A stretch of DNA of 64,000 nucleotides from Flavobacterium sasangense DSM 21067 (GTDB lineage: Bacteria; Bacteroidota; Bacteroidia; Flavobacteriales; Flavobacteriaceae): positions 62,001 through 126,000 of the forward strand of contig NZ_JMLU01000002.1 in assembly GCF_000686885.1 (NCBI RefSeq), read 5' to 3'. Below are positions 1,948 to 56,526 of the stretch, one piece after another (within the stretch, counting starts at the first letter, position 1; the number at the start of each line of letters is the position of its first letter). The notes beneath the pieces were generated by a model. It had not been told where the DNA came from, made no database searches, and saw only the letters and a program-made list of their open reading frames with translations. Position numbers and translations under genes: made by a program.

Positions 1948-3543
1948 TTATCTCTTCTGATAATCCGAAGTAAAGAATAACTCTACTGTTGGATATTTTT
2001 GTTGCGTCATTTGGATAGAGAAATCGCTATCGGCTAAGAACACCAATTGCCCGTATTTGTCATGTCCTAAGAATTTTTGTTTCACACGTTTAAATTCGGC
2101 AAACTCAGTGTTTTTTGGATCTTGTGGTTTTACCCAACACGCTTTAAACGCAGGGAAAGTTTCATACGTACATTTCGCACCATATTCATGCTCTAAACGG
2201 TATTGGATAACTTCGTATTGAAGCGCTCCTACGGTTCCAATTACTTTTCTTCCATTCATTTCTAAGGTAAACAACTGGGCTACACCTTCGTCCATTAACT
2301 GGTCAACTCCTTTTTCTAGTTGTTTCGATTTTAATGGATCGGCGTTATTGATATATCTAAAATGCTCTGGAGAGAAACTTGGAATTCCTTTGAAATTCAT
2401 GATTTCGCCTTCGGTTAAGGTGTCTCCAATTTTGAAGTTACCCGTATCGTGCAAACCTACGATATCACCAGGATATGAAATATCTACAATCTCTTTTTTC
2501 TCCGCAAAAAACGCATTCGGACTCGAGAATTTTAAATTCTTTCCTAAACGAACGTGTAAATAGGGTTTGTTTTTTTCAAACGTTCCCGATACAATTTTAA
2601 TGAACGCCAAACGGTCTCTGTGTTTTGGATCCATGTTGGCATGAATTTTAAATACAAATCCGCTTAATTTTTCTTCTTCTGGTCTTACTAATCTAGTATC
2701 GGATTCTTTTGGTCTTGGAGTTGGAGCAATTTCAACGAAACAGTCTAACAATTCGCGAACTCCAAAATTGTTCAAAGCCGAACCAAAGAAAACAGGTTGT
2801 AAATCGCCTTCTAAATATTCTTCTCTACTAAATGGAGGATACACTTCATCGATTAATTCCAATTCTTCTCTTAATCGATTCGCTGGTTTTTCTCCAATAA
2901 TTCCTTCTAATTCAGGACTATTGATGTCGTTGAAAGCAATCGTTTCTTCAATATTTTTTCGGCTATCACCTTCGAAAAGGTTGATGTTCTTTTCCCAAAT
3001 ATTGTAAATTCCTTGAAAATCGTATCCCATTCCAATAGGAAAACTTAATGGTGTAACGCGAAGTTTTAATTTTTTCTCCACTTCATCCATTAAATCGAAG
3101 GCATCTTTACCTTCACGGTCTAATTTGTTAATGAAAACAATCATCGGAATGTTTCGCATTCTACAAACTTCCACTAATTTTTCAGTTTGTTCCTCAACCC
3201 CTTTTGCAACGTCGATTACTACGATAACACTATCTACGGCAGTTAAAGTTCTGAAAGTATCTTCAGCAAAGTCTTTGTGACCTGGCGTATCTAAGATGTT
3301 GATTTTTTTATCTTTATAATTAAAAGCTAAGACAGAAGTCGCTACCGAAATTCCTCTTTGTCTTTCAATCTCCATGAAATCGGAAGTAGCTCCTTTTTTA
3401 ATTTTGTTACTTTTTACAGCTCCAGCCTCTTGAATTGCGCCTCCAAACAACAATAATTTCTCGGTTAAAGTCGTTTTACCAGCATCGGGATGCGAGATAA
3501 TTCCAAAAGTTCGTCTTCTTGCTATTTCTTCTATAAAACTCAT
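1948..3543 (-). CDS. prfC: Peptide chain release factor 3 (RF3)
   Basis: A 531-residue translational GTPase, the usual RF3 length. The N-terminal G domain has G1 SHPDAGKTT (17-25), the RGIS switch I region (63-66), G3 DTPGH (85-89) and G4 NKLD (139-142); these are hallmark RF3 spellings, with SHPDAGKTT rather than the AHVDHGKTT of EF-Tu/EF-G. RF3 recycles RF1/RF2 from the ribosome after peptide release and acts in the cytoplasm. The gene is monocistronic on the minus strand, with its own terminator and a TAnnTTTG promoter element 17 bases from the ATG. Nothing appears broken. Confidence 0.97.
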   Translation of the reverse strand: MSFIEEIARRRTFGIISHPDAGKTTLTEKLLLFGGAIQEAGAVKSNKIKKGATSDFMEIERQRGISVATSVLAFNYKDKKINILDTPGHKDFAEDTFRTLTAVDSVIVVIDVAKGVEEQTEKLVEVCRMRNIPMIVFINKLDREGKDAFDLMDEVEKKLKLRVTPLSFPIGMGYDFQGIYNIWEKNINLFEGDSRKNIEETIAFNDINSPELEGIIGEKPANRLREELELIDEVYPPFSREEYLEGDLQPVFFGSALNNFGVRELLDCFVEIAPTPRPKESDTRLVRPEEEKLSGFVFKIHANMDPKHRDRLAFIKIVSGTFEKNKPYLHVRLGKNLKFSSPNAFFAEKKEIVDISYPGDIVGLHDTGNFKIGDTLTEGEIMNFKGIPSFSPEHFRYINNADPLKSKQLEKGVDQLMDEGVAQLFTLEMNGRKVIGTVGALQYEVIQYRLEHEYGAKCTYETFPAFKACWVKPQDPKNTEFAEFKRVKQKFLGHDKYGQLVFLADSDFSIQMTQQKYPTVELFFTSDYQKR

Positions 3544-20163: not shown

Positions 20164-20249
20164 CAGTTTTAATTCTAAACTTTCTGTTACTAACTTAAAA
20201 CTAATCCTAAACATAAGTTAATTTGCTTTCATTACCAATTAATTGATAG

Positions 20250-25448: not shown

Positions 25449-25449
25449 A

Positions 25450-25513
25450 GTAAGTTTAAAGTTAAGGAGTTTAAAAGTAAACCTTTAGCCTTTTACCCTT
25501 AACCTATTACCTA
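25450..25513. repeat. Leader repeat element A
   Basis: The whole gap between the permease and the response regulator is built from degenerate GTTAAGG/CCTTAAC words: GTTAAGG at 25461-25467 and CCTTAAC at 25497-25503. Its right half (25480-25513) matches 27 of 34 positions, without gaps and in the same sense, a stretch inside the methyltransferase gene (minus strand, 50438-50471). It ends five bases before the ATG at 25519. Confidence 0.65.
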
Positions 25514-25518
25514 AAAAA

Positions 25519-26682: not shown

Positions 26683-26687
26683 TATCA

Positions 26688-26751
26688 AGTGAATAGTGAT
26701 AAGTAATTAGTGATAAGTTTGCTATTTACTCATCACTATTCACTAATTACT
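26688..26751. repeat. Leader hairpin element B
   Basis: AGTGAATAGTGAT (26688-26700) has a perfect 13-bp inverted partner at 26732-26744. AGTAATTAGTGA (26702-26713) has a perfect 12-bp partner at 26740-26751, which overlaps the first, so the two stems exclude each other. The element begins 5 bases after one stop codon and ends 9 bases before the next ATG. It is clearly homologous (about 80 percent over 65 bases by eye) to the element at 56458-56520. Confidence 0.8.
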
Positions 26752-26760
26752 AAATAAAAA

Positions 26761-35557: not shown

Positions 35558-35576
35558 AAAGTATTTTTTTCAAAAA

Positions 35577-35651
35577 TCAAGTTCAATTTCAACTTCAATG
35601 TTCAATTTTTTACTTTTTGTACTTGAACTTGACATTGTACTTGAACTTGAC
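35577..35651. repeat. Leader repeat element G
   Basis: TTGTACTTGAACTTGAC is present twice, exactly (35617-35633 and 35635-35651, 18-base period). TCAAGTTCAA (35577-35586) is its inverted complement (TTGAACTTGA at 35623-35632 and 35641-35650). It lies 19 bases upstream of the ECF sigma start and can form a long imperfect hairpin. Confidence 0.75.
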
Positions 35652-35709
35652 TTCCTTTTTTATATAGAGCAGAAAAGTTGGTAAAAGGTTGGGAAGGAAG
35701 TGAAAAAAA

Positions 35710-47069: not shown

Positions 47070-47094
47070 GGATCAAGTCGCGACTTGTCCCTAC
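47066..47094. repeat. Palindrome I-1 carrying the meaB stop codon
   Basis: GTAGGGA, a bulged T, CAAGTCG (47066-47080) then CGACTTG TCCCTAC (47081-47094): 14 bp of perfect self-complementarity with no loop. It contains the meaB TAG and lies between convergent genes. The ACAAGTC/GACTTGT core recurs at 47360-47380. Confidence 0.8.
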
Positions 47095-47111
47095 GTAATC
47101 ATAATCAAAGA

Positions 47112-47342
47112 TTATTCTTGCTCGTAACGTTCAATTTCTCTATCGTAGAATTCCCCAGCAATGGTAATTAAATGTTCCATTTCTGATTCTAATTCTTTTT
47201 CGTCTTCTTCTTCAATATCTTCTAAAAATTCTACTTCGTCATCTTTTAAATTGATTACGAATCGTGGATATTCTAAATGGATTACGAAAATATCTTCTGG
47301 AAAATCGGTATTATCTCCGATAACAAATTTTGGTAAGTTCAT
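47112..47342 (-). CDS. Small acidic conserved protein
   Basis: 76 residues, no signal peptide. It has a folded-looking N-terminal half (PKFVIGDNTDFPEDIFVIHLEYPRFVINL) and a strongly acidic helix (DDEVEFLEDIEEEDEKELESEMEHL). I recall similar short proteins in Flavobacteriia but know no function. It is flanked on both sides by related palindromes (47066-47094 and 47360-47380) and lies 46 bases behind the MATE gene on the same strand. Confidence 0.75.
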   Translation of the reverse strand: MNLPKFVIGDNTDFPEDIFVIHLEYPRFVINLKDDEVEFLEDIEEEDEKELESEMEHLITIAGEFYDREIERYEQE

Positions 47343-49357: not shown

Positions 49358-50059
49358 TTACTTTTTAATATTCGGATTTTGTGAATCACTTTCAATAAGT
49401 CCGTCGCGTAAACGAATGATTCTGTGAGCGTAAGCGGCAATATCTTCTTCGTGAGTTACAAGAATTACAGTGTTTCCGTTGGCGTGAATTTCGTTGAATA
49501 AATTCATGATTTCTACTGAAGTTTTACTGTCTAAGTTTCCTGTTGGCTCATCGGCTAAAATGATAGAAGGCTTGTTAACCAAAGCTCTCGCAACCGCAAC
49601 ACGCTGACGTTGACCACCCGATAACTGATTCGGTTTGTGATCCATACGGTCTTGAAGTCCCACTTGTGTCAATACTTCAGTTGCACGTTCCACGCGTTCC
49701 GATTTAGAATGACCTGCATAAACCATTGGTAAAGCTACATTATCCAAAGCCGTTGTTCTAGGCATTAAGTTAAACGTTTGAAAAACGAATCCAATTTCTT
49801 TATTACGAATTCCCGCCAATTCATCGTCTTGCATTTCACTTACGTGTTTTCCGTTCAAAATGTAAGTTCCTGAAGTTGGCGTATCCAAACAACCTAAAAT
49901 ATTCATCAAAGTGGATTTTCCAGAACCTGAAGGTCCCATCAACGCTACATATTCCCCTTTATTAATTTCTAAATCGATGCCTTTTAACACATACACGATT
50001 TCGTTTCCTAAAGGGAAATCTCTTTTGATATTGGTTATTTTGATTAACGGATTTGCCAT
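49358..50059 (-). CDS. ABC transporter ATP-binding protein, LolD/MacB type
   Basis: 233 residues: Walker A GPSGSGKS (42-49), signature [15 protein letters not shown], Walker [14 protein letters not shown] and the H-loop VTHEED. This spelling marks the LolD/MacB/FtsE group, which powers lipoprotein release or macrolide and peptide export. No permease gene is adjacent, so its partner is elsewhere. Its leader carries a short GAATGT word repeat (50059-50080) right against the ATG. Confidence 0.93.
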
Positions 50060-50080
50060 GTTGAATGTCGAATGTTGATT
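50059..50080 (-). repeat. Short word repeat in the LolD-like gene leader
   Basis: Degenerate TTGAATGT/TCGAATGT words directly abut the start codon (plus-strand GAATGT at 50063 and 50070). The level of support is low because the unit is short. Confidence 0.35.
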
Positions 50081-50152
50081 AACGAATTATGATTTCAGAA
50101 GTTTTAAATTCCGATTCTATTATAAGTAGAAAAAGAAAGGAATTTGTTACAA

Positions 50153-50977
50153 CTAAAAACGAATTCTTTCAAACAAGTGTGAACTAATCGTTTTATTCGG
50201 ATTGATGATGAAATGTTCTTTTTGTTGTTCGGCTCTAAAGAATATGATTCCCCATTGAAAAGTATCAATCGTAACGGAAACTTTTGGATGATTTTTTATG
50301 ATTTCCCAAGCTTCTTCCATATCAGTTGACCAATGAATATCATCGAAAATCCAAACAGAATCATTTGAAATCGTAGGAAGTAAGGCTTCAAAATAATCTA
50401 AAGTCGCTTTTTTGGAATGATTGCCATCGAAATAGATTAGGTGATGGGTTATGGGTGAAAGGTCAAGGGTTTTAAAATAGCTTGAAAATTCGGTATTAAC
50501 GAATTCAATATTTTGAAAATTTGAATTTTGTTCTTGCAATTGAACTTGCGCTTGCTTTTGCGTATTTGGACAACCTTCTAAAGTGATAATGTCCGAATTT
50601 TTATTTCCCAATGAAAGTGCAGAAGTAGCCAATCCTAATGAAGTGCCAATTTCTAAAACGCTTTTTGGTTGAAAATAACGAACAATTCTAAAAAGTAGTT
50701 CTGCATTTTTTGGAGTAATTCCAGCGGTTTGTGCGATTTTTGAAATTGCTCTGGTATTTGATTTAAAAACTCGTGAACCAGCACCAAAATCGGTTACTTC
50801 AATCGTGTTTTTATTTTCTAAAAGCGATTTTCTATACGATTTTAAGGTTTCGTATTCTGGATATTTGGTGTTGTCATAAAAACATTTCGTAACTAAATCA
50901 AACACAAATGGCGAATGCACTCCATGTTCGTTTTTGGAATGGAAAAGGAATTTTATGTAGGATTTAATTATAGTCAC
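50153..50977 (-). CDS. Class I SAM-dependent methyltransferase
   Basis: 274 residues with the Rossmann motif VLEIGTSLGLATSALSLG (about 117-134) and IITLEGCPNTQKQAQVQL. The N-terminal word KNEHGVHSPFVFDLVTKCFYD and the LIYFDGNHSKKATLDYFEALLP word place it in an O-methyltransferase-like Bacteroidota family. The start is GTG (50975-50977), inside the first plus-strand copy of a 13-bp tandem repeat; an in-frame stop lies four codons upstream. Residues KTLDLSPITHHLI are encoded by a 34-bp sequence that matches intergenic element A, suggesting a repeat absorbed into the protein. Substrate is unknown. Confidence 0.85.
   Translation of the reverse strand: MTIIKSYIKFLFHSKNEHGVHSPFVFDLVTKCFYDNTKYPEYETLKSYRKSLLENKNTIEVTDFGAGSRVFKSNTRAISKIAQTAGITPKNAELLFRIVRYFQPKSVLEIGTSLGLATSALSLGNKNSDIITLEGCPNTQKQAQVQLQEQNSNFQNIEFVNTEFSSYFKTLDLSPITHHLIYFDGNHSKKATLDYFEALLPTISNDSVWIFDDIHWSTDMEEAWEIIKNHPKVSVTIDTFQWGIIFFRAEQQKEHFIINPNKTISSHLFERIRF
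50438..50471 (-). repeat. Repeat element D inside the methyltransferase coding sequence
   Basis: 34 bases that match element A (25480-25513) at 27 of 34 positions with no gap, in the same sense relative to the gene. Translated, it adds the low-complexity segment TLDLSPITHHL just before the conserved YFDG word. Confidence 0.6.
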
Positions 50978-51048
50978 AGTTTTCAGTCACAGTTTTCAGT
51001 CACAGTTTTCAGTCACAGTTTTCTCTGCTTACTGCGACTGCGACTGAA
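50972..51048. repeat. Tandem repeat element E over the methyltransferase start
   Basis: AGTCACAGTTTTC occurs four times exactly in tandem (50972-51023, 13-bp unit). A right arm ACTGCGACTGCGACTGAA (51031-51048) is complementary to the units: 11 of 12 match for TTCAGTCACAGT. The GTG start of the methyltransferase lies in the first plus-strand unit. The element fills the gap to the ABC-F gene. Confidence 0.85.
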
Positions 51049-51057
51049 TACTAATTA

Positions 51058-52920
51058 TTATTCCATTTTGCTCGATAATTCAAACCAACGTTCTTCTTTT
51101 TCTTCTAAAGTTTGAATGATTTTTTGTAATTCATTCGCTTTTGCTTCAATTTTATCATCAGCAACTTTTCCGTCGGCGAATTCTTGTTCGATGGTTTTCT
51201 TTTGAATTTCTAAATCTTTGATTTCTCTTTCAATTTTATTGAATTCCTTCTGTTCGTTGAAACTTAATCCAGTTGAAGCCGTTTGTTTTTCCTTCCAATT
51301 TGTTTTTTCAGTACTTACCGAATTTAAAACTTTTGGTTCCGCCGAATCTTCATACGCTCTAAAATCAGAATAATTTCCTGGGAAATCTTCAATTTCGCCT
51401 TCACCTCTAAAAACAAATAAGTGATCTACAATTTTATCCATGAAATATCTGTCGTGACTTACGACTAATAAACATCCTGGATAATCTAAAAGAAAACTTT
51501 CTAAAACGTTTAATGTTACAATATCCAAATCATTCGTTGGCTCATCCAGAATCAAGAAATTCGGATTTTGAATTAAAACAGTACATAAATACAAACGTTT
51601 CAATTCGCCACCGCTTAATTTTTCAACGAAATCGTATTGTTTTTTGGCATCAAATAAAAAGCGTTCCAATAATTGCGAAGCCGAAATAATTTTTCCTTTA
51701 GTTAACGGAATATATTCGCCATATTCTTTGATGATATCAATTACTTTTTGTCCTGGTTTCGGGTTGATACCACTTTGTGTGTAATACCCAATTTTAATCG
51801 TGTCACCAATAATCACTTTACCCGAATCAGGTTGAATGGTTTGGGTTAAAATATTTAAAAAAGTCGATTTTCCGGTTCCGTTTTTACCAATAATTCCAAT
51901 GCGTTCGCCACGTTGAAAGGAATAGCTGAAATCTTTTAAAATGGTTCGGTCAGGGAAATTCTTATTCAATTTTACCATTTCGATAATCTTGCTTCCCATG
52001 CGTTCCATGTTGATTTCGAGCTCTACAACATTTTCTTTTCTTCGACTTTCGGCAACTTCTTTAATTTTGTAAAAATCATCTTGACGCGATTTTGATTTCG
52101 TCGTTCTAGCTTTTGGTTGACGGCGCATCCATGCCAATTCCTTTACGAATAAGTTTTGTGCTTTGTCAATTGTTGCATTTTCTGAAGCCAAACGTTCTTC
52201 TTTTTTGGCTAGATAATAAGAATAATTGCCTTTGTATTGGTAGATTTTTCCGTTGTCTAATTCGATAATTTCGTTACAAACGCGTTCCAAAAAGAAACGG
52301 TCGTGCGTTACCATAAACAACGTGATGTTTTCTTTTGCAAAATAATCTTCTAACCATTCAATCATTTCTAAATCAAGGTGATTGGTTGGCTCGTCTAAAA
52401 TTAATAAATCAGGTTTACTAATTAAAATAATGGCTAGCGAAAGACGTTTTTTTTGTCCACCCGACATGTTTTTGACTTTCATTTTTAAGTCTTCCAACTT
52501 TAGCTTGTATAGAATTTGCTTGAATTGCGTTTCAAAATCCCAAGCGTTATGGCGGTCCATATCGTCAAAAGCTCTTTGATACGCTTCTTCGTCATTCGGA
52601 TTTTCTAAAGCTTTTTCGTAGCGTTCAATTACCTTCAGAATTTCATTATCCGAAGCAAAAATATTTTCCTCAATGGTTAATTCGTCTTGCAAATTATTGT
52701 TTTGCGACAAAAACGCCATATTAATCTCTTTTCGAACTACCACTTGACCGGTATCAGGTTCGTCCAAACCATTAATCATGTTCATAATCGTGGTTTTTCC
52801 TGAACCGTTTTTAGCGATAAAAGCTATTTTTTGATCTTTGTTAATTCCGAACGAAACGTTGTCAAATAACACACGTTCGCCATAAGATTTTGATATATTT
52901 TCGACTGATAGGTAATTCAT
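51058..52920 (-). CDS. ABC-F family ATPase with C-terminal coiled coil (Uup-like)
   Basis: 620 residues. Domain 1: Walker A AKNGSGKT (36-43), MSGGQKKRLSLA, LLILDEPTNHLD. Domain 2: Walker A GKNGTGKST, LSGGELKRLYL, FLILDEPTNDLD. The linker contains KNLFVKELAWMRRQPKARTTKSKSRQ, a DNA/RNA-binding-type basic stretch. The last 75 residues form a charged coiled coil (FNEQKEFNKIEREIKDLEIQKKTIEQEF) as in Uup, a soluble ABC-F protein linked to ribosome function and transposon excision. Divergent from the glycosyltransferase gene. Confidence 0.94.
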   Translation of the reverse strand: MNYLSVENISKSYGERVLFDNVSFGINKDQKIAFIAKNGSGKTTIMNMINGLDEPDTGQVVVRKEINMAFLSQNNNLQDELTIEENIFASDNEILKVIERYEKALENPNDEEAYQRAFDDMDRHNAWDFETQFKQILYKLKLEDLKMKVKNMSGGQKKRLSLAIILISKPDLLILDEPTNHLDLEMIEWLEDYFAKENITLFMVTHDRFFLERVCNEIIELDNGKIYQYKGNYSYYLAKKEERLASENATIDKAQNLFVKELAWMRRQPKARTTKSKSRQDDFYKIKEVAESRRKENVVELEINMERMGSKIIEMVKLNKNFPDRTILKDFSYSFQRGERIGIIGKNGTGKSTFLNILTQTIQPDSGKVIIGDTIKIGYYTQSGINPKPGQKVIDIIKEYGEYIPLTKGKIISASQLLERFLFDAKKQYDFVEKLSGGELKRLYLCTVLIQNPNFLILDEPTNDLDIVTLNVLESFLLDYPGCLLVVSHDRYFMDKIVDHLFVFRGEGEIEDFPGNYSDFRAYEDSAEPKVLNSVSTEKTNWKEKQTASTGLSFNEQKEFNKIEREIKDLEIQKKTIEQEFADGKVADDKIEAKANELQKIIQTLEEKEERWFELSSKME

Positions 52921-52932
52921 TATTTTAATTTG

Positions 52933-53085
52933 TCAATTAGACAATATGGCAATTCCAACTTTCGGAACAAGTTGAGCCAATCGTTTTGCAAAAATAGCTT
53001 TATTATTTCAAATTCGTATTTTTGTATTTTATAAATAAATATTGCAACTTTGACTTATCAATTAATTGGCACATTGACTAATTGA
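52933..53085. repeat. Inverted leader repeat pair J around a divergent promoter region
   Basis: A 22-base word (52933-52954, minus sense) and its counterpart (53064-53085, plus sense) are inverted copies with three mismatches. The shared core in mRNA sense is ATTGnCTAATTGA. One lies 12 bases before the ABC-F start and the other 18 bases before the glycosyltransferase start, so both mRNAs carry the same leader word. Confidence 0.7.
52989..53024. promoter_or_regulatory. Divergent -7 elements (ABC-F minus, glycosyltransferase plus)
   Basis: Minus strand TATTTTTG at 52989-52996 and plus strand TATTTTTG at 53017-53024, each pointing to its gene. -33 matches are poor for both. Confidence 0.45.
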
Positions 53086-53103
53086 ATATTGAAAATTAAA
53101 TCC

Positions 53104-56457: not shown

Positions 56458-56520
56458 AGTGATTAGTGAAAAGTAATTGGTGAATAGTTGCTAATTACTT
56501 TTTACTAATCACTAATCACT
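56458..56520. repeat. Leader hairpin element F
   Basis: A 21-bp inverted repeat with one mismatch (56458-56478 with 56493-56513, 14-base loop), plus a perfect outer pair AGTGATTAGTGA (56458-56469) and TCACTAATCACT (56509-56520). It begins at the base after the exonuclease stop and ends six bases before the FAH ATG. Homologous to element B at 26688. Confidence 0.85.
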
Positions 56521-56526
56521 AGAATT

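Follow-up and report, generated by a model that had tools for sequence, protein, structure and literature searches.

Hairpin spacers as probable interspecies alleles between an ABC-F gene and a methyltransferase gene in Flavobacterium

At one site, where an ABC-F type ATPase gene is followed by a methyltransferase gene, Flavobacterium species carry different, nonhomologous spacers between the two. On balance, we think it probable that these hairpin spacers are alleles exchanged between species, most likely by recombination in the ends of the flanking genes, and that their repeat units then slip. In our model, the spacer is a short intercistronic hairpin of 6-7 bp words, with a 13-bp array as one arm, and several different spacers would act as alleles at the same site. 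Incoming DNA would recombine by homology in the ends of both flanking genes, replacing a piece that begins near the ABC-F stop codon and ends a few codons into the methyltransferase gene, so that the spacer would bring its own start codon, GTG or ATG, together with the first residues. Once in place, the arms could gain or lose units by slippage, changing the leader length and leaving the frame intact. What the hairpin does is the least supported part of this model; our best guess is a role at the mRNA level between the two genes, and the hairpins may be neutral.

A repeat array that very probably holds the methyltransferase start codon

The window, a 64,000-nucleotide stretch of the Flavobacterium sasangense DSM 21067 genome, contains both genes in the same direction on the minus strand. 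The upstream gene (51058-52920) encodes an ATPase with two ABC_tran domains, which we take to be of the ABC-F type, and the downstream open reading frame (50153-50977) matches the Pfam family Methyltransf_24. The putatively exchangeable spacer, here a class A allele, occupies 50972-51057 on the minus strand, from the ABC-F stop codon to the methyltransferase start. Its gene-proximal arm consists of four 13-bp units at 50972-51023, reading AGTCACAGTTTTC on the plus strand and GAAAACTGTGACT on the minus strand. As originally predicted, all four are exact and lie head to tail. No other repeat in the window reaches the array's tandem-repeat score (104; the next is 70). Finding AGTCACAGTTTTC at four places with up to two mismatches is unremarkable alone, since 22 of 100 shuffles reached it; what is unusual is the exactness and adjacency of all four units.

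In the methyltransferase frame, the minus strand reads TGA CTG AAA ACT GTG ACT ATA ATT AAA, with the anticipated in-frame stop four codons upstream of the GTG. Between this TGA and the conserved IKSY..HGVHSPF body of the protein, the GTG at 50977-50975 on the minus strand, inside the gene-proximal unit, is the only ATG, GTG or TTG. The original prediction that the first plus-strand unit contains the start codon is therefore very likely right, and, judging from the reading frame, the 13-bp repeat very probably supplies it. The same ACT GTG ACT context occurs in the window and in eight relatives (L105, L111, L113, L115, L119, L131, L138 and G082).

A partial inverted arm follows the array, again as predicted: ACTGCG is repeated 2.7 times at 51031-51046, within an opposite arm of 6-bp period at 51031-51052 (ACTGCGACTGCGACTGAATACT on the plus strand). 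The minus-strand RNA of 50960-51060 has a predicted folding energy of -30.9 kcal/mol (z -6.4), and none of 200 shuffles was equally stable. In the predicted fold, the opposite arm pairs with the ABC-F-proximal 13-bp units, and the array is one arm of a quasi-palindromic intercistronic spacer predicted to form a hairpin. We rejected burial of the start codon by the hairpin, because the lowest-energy fold uses the ABC-F-proximal units and leaves the start not strongly buried. In longer context, mean start-codon pairing ranged from 0.34 to 0.86 in class A and was similarly scattered in other classes, with no clear pattern. A known structured RNA was also rejected: the only Rfam match in 50000-53000 up to an E value of 1, isrI, scored below the gathering threshold and lies outside the spacer. 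A simple scan found no intrinsic terminator in 50800-51200.

Spacer classes at the same site in relatives

To compare this site among relatives, we kept the best 80 of 386 loci related by their methyltransferase and read them together with the window's own. The sample comprises one genome per species, and many of the relatives are metagenome-assembled genomes (MAGs). An ABC-F end was recognised by pattern upstream of the spacer in 58 of these 81 loci; the other 23, where the upstream gene differs or the pattern missed the ABC-F end, stand outside the class counts. The 58 spacers fall into eight classes, set by hand-chosen motifs and some manual labels: A (10 loci, with the 13-bp array), B (11, AATTAGT words), D (4), E (16, CACAAAG/CTCTGTG words, lumping sub-types), F (3), G (4), H (4, REPIN-like) and the singleton I (1). 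Five loci belong to none and are labelled J. Most of the 58 look by eye like arrays of words with inverted arms; fold z-scores cover the spacers of the window. Spacers of different classes align at about 48% identity. The larger difference between relatives is not in unit number: the entire spacer is replaced by another, and relatives that lack the 13-bp array still keep the methyltransferase gene.

Start codons differ along with the spacers. Across the 81 loci, an ATG stands four codons before IKSY in 60 and a GTG at the same place in 11; in eight loci, all of class A, the GTG lies one codon later, and the remaining two have TTG, one at each place. In 19 of the 26 loci of class A or E, the start closest to the conserved body is a GTG; no such GTG start occurs in the remaining 32 loci that share these flanks. 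Since GTG starts occur across both class A and class E, more than one class has repeat words that supply the GTG. In one spacer (L161, F. macrobrachii; before the match at 3001), a class A array meets an E-type start, GTG CTA CAA, at CTGTG; this spacer looks like a junction of two alleles, as if recombined at the start codon.

Spacer class hardly follows the flanking genes. With the J rows left out, the eight classes need 31 changes on the distal ABC-F tree, 31 on the proximal ABC-F tree and 32 on the methyltransferase tree. Shuffling labels on the latter two trees gave means of 32.0 and 32.6, with 73 and 87 of 200 shuffles, respectively, as low as the observed values. The 23 classed loci not titled as MAGs are likewise incongruent (ABC-F, 15 changes against 13.8 shuffled; methyltransferase, 14 against 14.1); therefore, mis-assembled metagenomes do not explain the scatter. 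The three rows of class F group as one clade on the proximal ABC-F tree (a count as low was reached in 0 of 500 shuffles), so some inheritance of spacer class does show, though they do not group on the methyltransferase tree. In MAFFT alignments, which replaced earlier gap-free identity values, a class is shared by 10 of 46 pairs with flanks at least 90% identical and by 27 of 108 pairs at 85-90%, where class frequencies predict a fraction of 0.186, close to the first of these. Strains BAL38 (L113, class A) and LMO8 (L114, class E) are sisters on the methyltransferase and joint trees, though not on the proximal ABC-F tree.

Spacers of the same class look like alleles shared between species. 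Their mean identity is 92% where the flanks are at least 90% identical, 87% at 85-90% and 66% below that, so that on average they are about as similar as their flanks, or less. Only 28 of 226 same-class pairs have a spacer more than 5 points closer than the flanks. However, 12 pairs combine spacers more than 95% identical with flanks at 85-92%, and the spacer and flank values stand at 99.1% against 91.2% for L108/L112, 96.6% against 86.8% for L105/L119 and 98.6% against 85.7% for L126/L175. The window's spacer is closest to that of the same locus in L115 (0.933), and six of the nine other class A loci reach at least 0.79. We also compared it with 14 other A-type elements of its own genome, over all windows and both strands, and the best reached 0.707. 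The recent alleles are therefore specific to the locus and shared among species, rather than new copies of a dispersed repeat. Three loci do not clearly surpass the own-genome best: L161 (0.72), L131 (0.674) and L127 (0.578), the last two being no nearer to the window's spacer than some elements of its own genome.

We estimated the edges of the exchanged piece by permuting class against identity over ungapped columns of 51 loci. In the four codons before IKSY, none of 200 permutations matched the observed association at any codon, a signal that partly follows from the arrays of class A themselves extending into these codons. The first methyltransferase codons are thus linked to class. In the next windows, up to 60 bases from the start of the stretch, the counts were 0, 2, 8 and 6 of 200, and at 60-108 bases the association was absent (63 of 200). 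On the ABC-F side, the lowest counts were 12 and 10 of 200, and same-class pairs had no consistent rise in flank identity there, even within 30 bp. From these alignments, we tentatively place the edges of the exchanged piece near the ABC-F stop codon and within the first methyltransferase codons. The flat ABC-F side counts against our model, as ordinary recombination would normally drag more flank with it.

Other array spacers in the window also switch. We found four array spacers in the window, each between co-directional genes. One, of AGTGATT/AGTAATT 7-bp words, lies at 56458-56526 on the plus strand, upstream of a gene for an FAA hydrolase, and is replaced by GGTAAAA-type arrays in G023, G012 and G047. 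Another, at 26683-26760 on the plus strand upstream of a DEAD-box protein gene, gives way to GCATTAG-type arrays in G023, G085 and G012 and to GGTAAAA-type arrays in G082 and G047. AGT-word arrays are kept at both sites in G203, G130 and G179, and at 56458 in G082. The protein encoded from 26761 is 100% identical in G023 despite the different spacer upstream. Across three relatives, replacement at similar length was seen for the four array spacers in 7 of 10 comparisons, to which the spacer at 35558 contributes a single one, and for the remaining spacers in 11 of 75 (Fisher p 0.0005); among co-directional spacers alone the figures are 7 of 10 and 10 of 56 (p 0.002). This control is not clean, as the comparisons are non-independent and switching at three of the four arrays was known before they were chosen. 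Nor is switching confined to array spacers: of the other window spacers, 12 of 32 dropped under 65% identity to at least one relative, some of them half or decayed arrays and several with DNA inserted.

The spacer at 35558-35709 contains TTGTACTTGAACTTGACA repeats and an inverted arm, and its array part is absent from G082, where a 66-bp spacer is left. Those at 25449-25518 and 20164-20242 look like half or decayed word arrays, with different versions in G082 and G047. At 47070-47160, 50060-50152 and 52921-53088, roughly 200-420 bp of extra DNA is present in G082, G012 or G047, with apparent small genes in places.

Slippage, mobility and old polymorphism as possible explanations

Unit number varies between species. 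Four units, some with variant letters, are present in the window and in L105, L111, L113, L115 and L119, three in G082, L138 and L161, and two in L131; the same count gives none in L127. Copy number is therefore not fixed among relatives, each species being represented by one genome. In G082, a near relative with 97% identical flanks, the array has three units and the opposite arm is shorter by one 6-bp unit. Simple-sequence-repeat phase variation likewise involves tandem units next to a start codon and differences in copy number, and on this reading slippage of the 13-bp units would turn methyltransferase expression on and off. Its attraction is that unit number does differ, from four here to three in a close relative and two to four elsewhere. 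But the frame does not include the array, and the GTG comes from the terminal, gene-proximal unit in each of the 10 spacers with two units or more (two to four). Unit gain or loss therefore alters only leader length and structure. This part of the original prediction stands; a switch that depends on 13 being no multiple of 3 is not supported, and we rejected a copy-number switch of the reading frame on these grounds. Moreover, six of the 10 spacers have four units though their flanks are only 84-91% identical to each other, and the gene is retained where the array is missing. We regard on/off switching as highly improbable.

Two further alternatives address the replacement of whole spacers. 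If selection or drift had maintained old alleles within species while recombination wore away their linkage to the flanks, class would be distributed nearly at random and flank linkage would be almost nil, as we observe; the 12 same-class pairs with spacers above 95% and flanks at 85-92% look recent, however, and such a trans-species polymorphism seems to us rather unlikely. Each class might instead be a transposable palindrome, REPIN- or MITE-like, that repeatedly enters and leaves this one site. The class A motif and AGTRAWN arrays are indeed dispersed in the genome (35 matches against 3 and 76 against 10 in the respective controls), and class H resembles REPIN palindromes. Against this, alleles at the same locus mostly resemble each other more than they do own-genome elements, the array flanks none of six Y1 transposase genes, five of which carry other repeats by eye, and two genomes have class A cores with no match to the Y1 family, the one we searched for. 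Mobility of this kind strikes us as unlikely. Our preferred reading, exchange of alleles by recombination in the flanking genes, has a more ambitious and doubtful extension, which we offer only tentatively: Flavobacterium may share a pool of gene-pair-specific hairpin cassettes, swapped between species near stop and start codons and carrying the start codon and first residues, whose diversity is kept by selection as a form of combinatorial operon tuning.

The data on dispersal are as follows. Matches to the CAGTCNCAGT core in the draft genome fall at 20 places, five inside ORFs and 15 intergenic, with ORFs called by a simple script; its control was the reversed motif. Nine of the intergenic places lie between co-directional genes, three between convergent and two between divergent ones, and one has a gene called on one side only. 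Across 16 genomes of the genus, including our own, the CAGTCRCAGT core occurs 2 to 88 times per genome (reversed controls, 1 to 10) and is not above control in six (G001, G002, G003, G005, G010 and G014). The second family, three consecutive AGTRAWN words, is built of 7-bp words; class A alternates 6 and 7 bp. Arrays of three GGTRAWN words gave only one match in our genome. A long array at G012:C1:652521-652660 has AGTGATT repeats in its left arm and the complement of AGTAAAA repeats in its right arm, and these arms look to have been homogenised separately, to judge from their words. Another, at G013:C4:228408-228630, exceeds 200 bp and passes from AGTGATT to AGTGATAAGTAATT units.

The listed matches to Y1_Tnp number 44, in 15 of 26 genomes. 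We read by eye flanks of up to 400 bp at six Y1 genes, two of our own genome and four of relatives, and found no 13-bp array beside any; two more loci of our genome, lying at contig starts, yielded no complete ORF. Palindromes of the GCACGGATTGCAAATCCG type flank the Y1 genes L213, L215 and L216, and TCCCTACGGGA-type repeats flank L212, from our own genome, and L214, again by eye. Class A core motifs number 54 in G004 and 19 in G011, two genomes with no Y1_Tnp match. Reading the spacer at 50972-51057 by eye, we found neither GTAG nor CTAC. With no such tag in the spacer and no RAYT adjacency at the six Y1 genes, a RAYT-mobilised REP is not supported.

Relation to known intergenic elements

The closest parallel is the within-species intergenic-region switching, or horizontal regulatory transfer, described with Piggy for E. 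coli and S. aureus, in which spacers are incongruent with gene trees (PMC5890482). Here, too, the same flanking genes enclose nonhomologous spacers, and the spacers are incongruent with gene trees, class F excepted. As far as that account describes them, those cases concern S. aureus and E. coli, whereas the Flavobacterium spacers differ between species of a genus and are distributed near-randomly on flank trees. They also differ from the switching described there in being mostly, by eye, word-array hairpins and in that each spacer brings the start codon and first residues along.

TAACTGA heptamer repeats form intergenic arrays in Beggiatoaceae, Cyanobacteria and five Bacteroidetes, many of them just upstream of start codons, with indels in 7-nt steps between two Cyanothece strains (PMC4679880). 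A likeness may lie in intergenic arrays of 7-bp words near start codons. In that description, almost all arrays repeat a single word in direct orientation, interrupted in some by related 7-mers, with one inverted repeat; the Flavobacterium spacers, in contrast, have varied words, inverted arms and class switching at sites. REP palindromes with RAYT transposases, as portrayed in PMC3733652, are similarly dispersed and intergenic and are tagged with GTAG, whereas the Flavobacterium spacer has multi-unit arms of 6-7 bp words, and we saw neither the tag nor RAYT adjacency. The matches listed in our literature searches included no report joining spacer switching, heptamer arrays and REPs in Flavobacterium.

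If species exchange the spacers between ordinary genes so freely, start codons and the signals between genes would evolve separately from the genes themselves. For a large genus, the consequences would reach start-site annotation, gene trees and models of operon regulation. This locus also offers a natural allele series, with eight motif classes, two to four units and GTG or ATG starts, for probing the effects of the hairpins.
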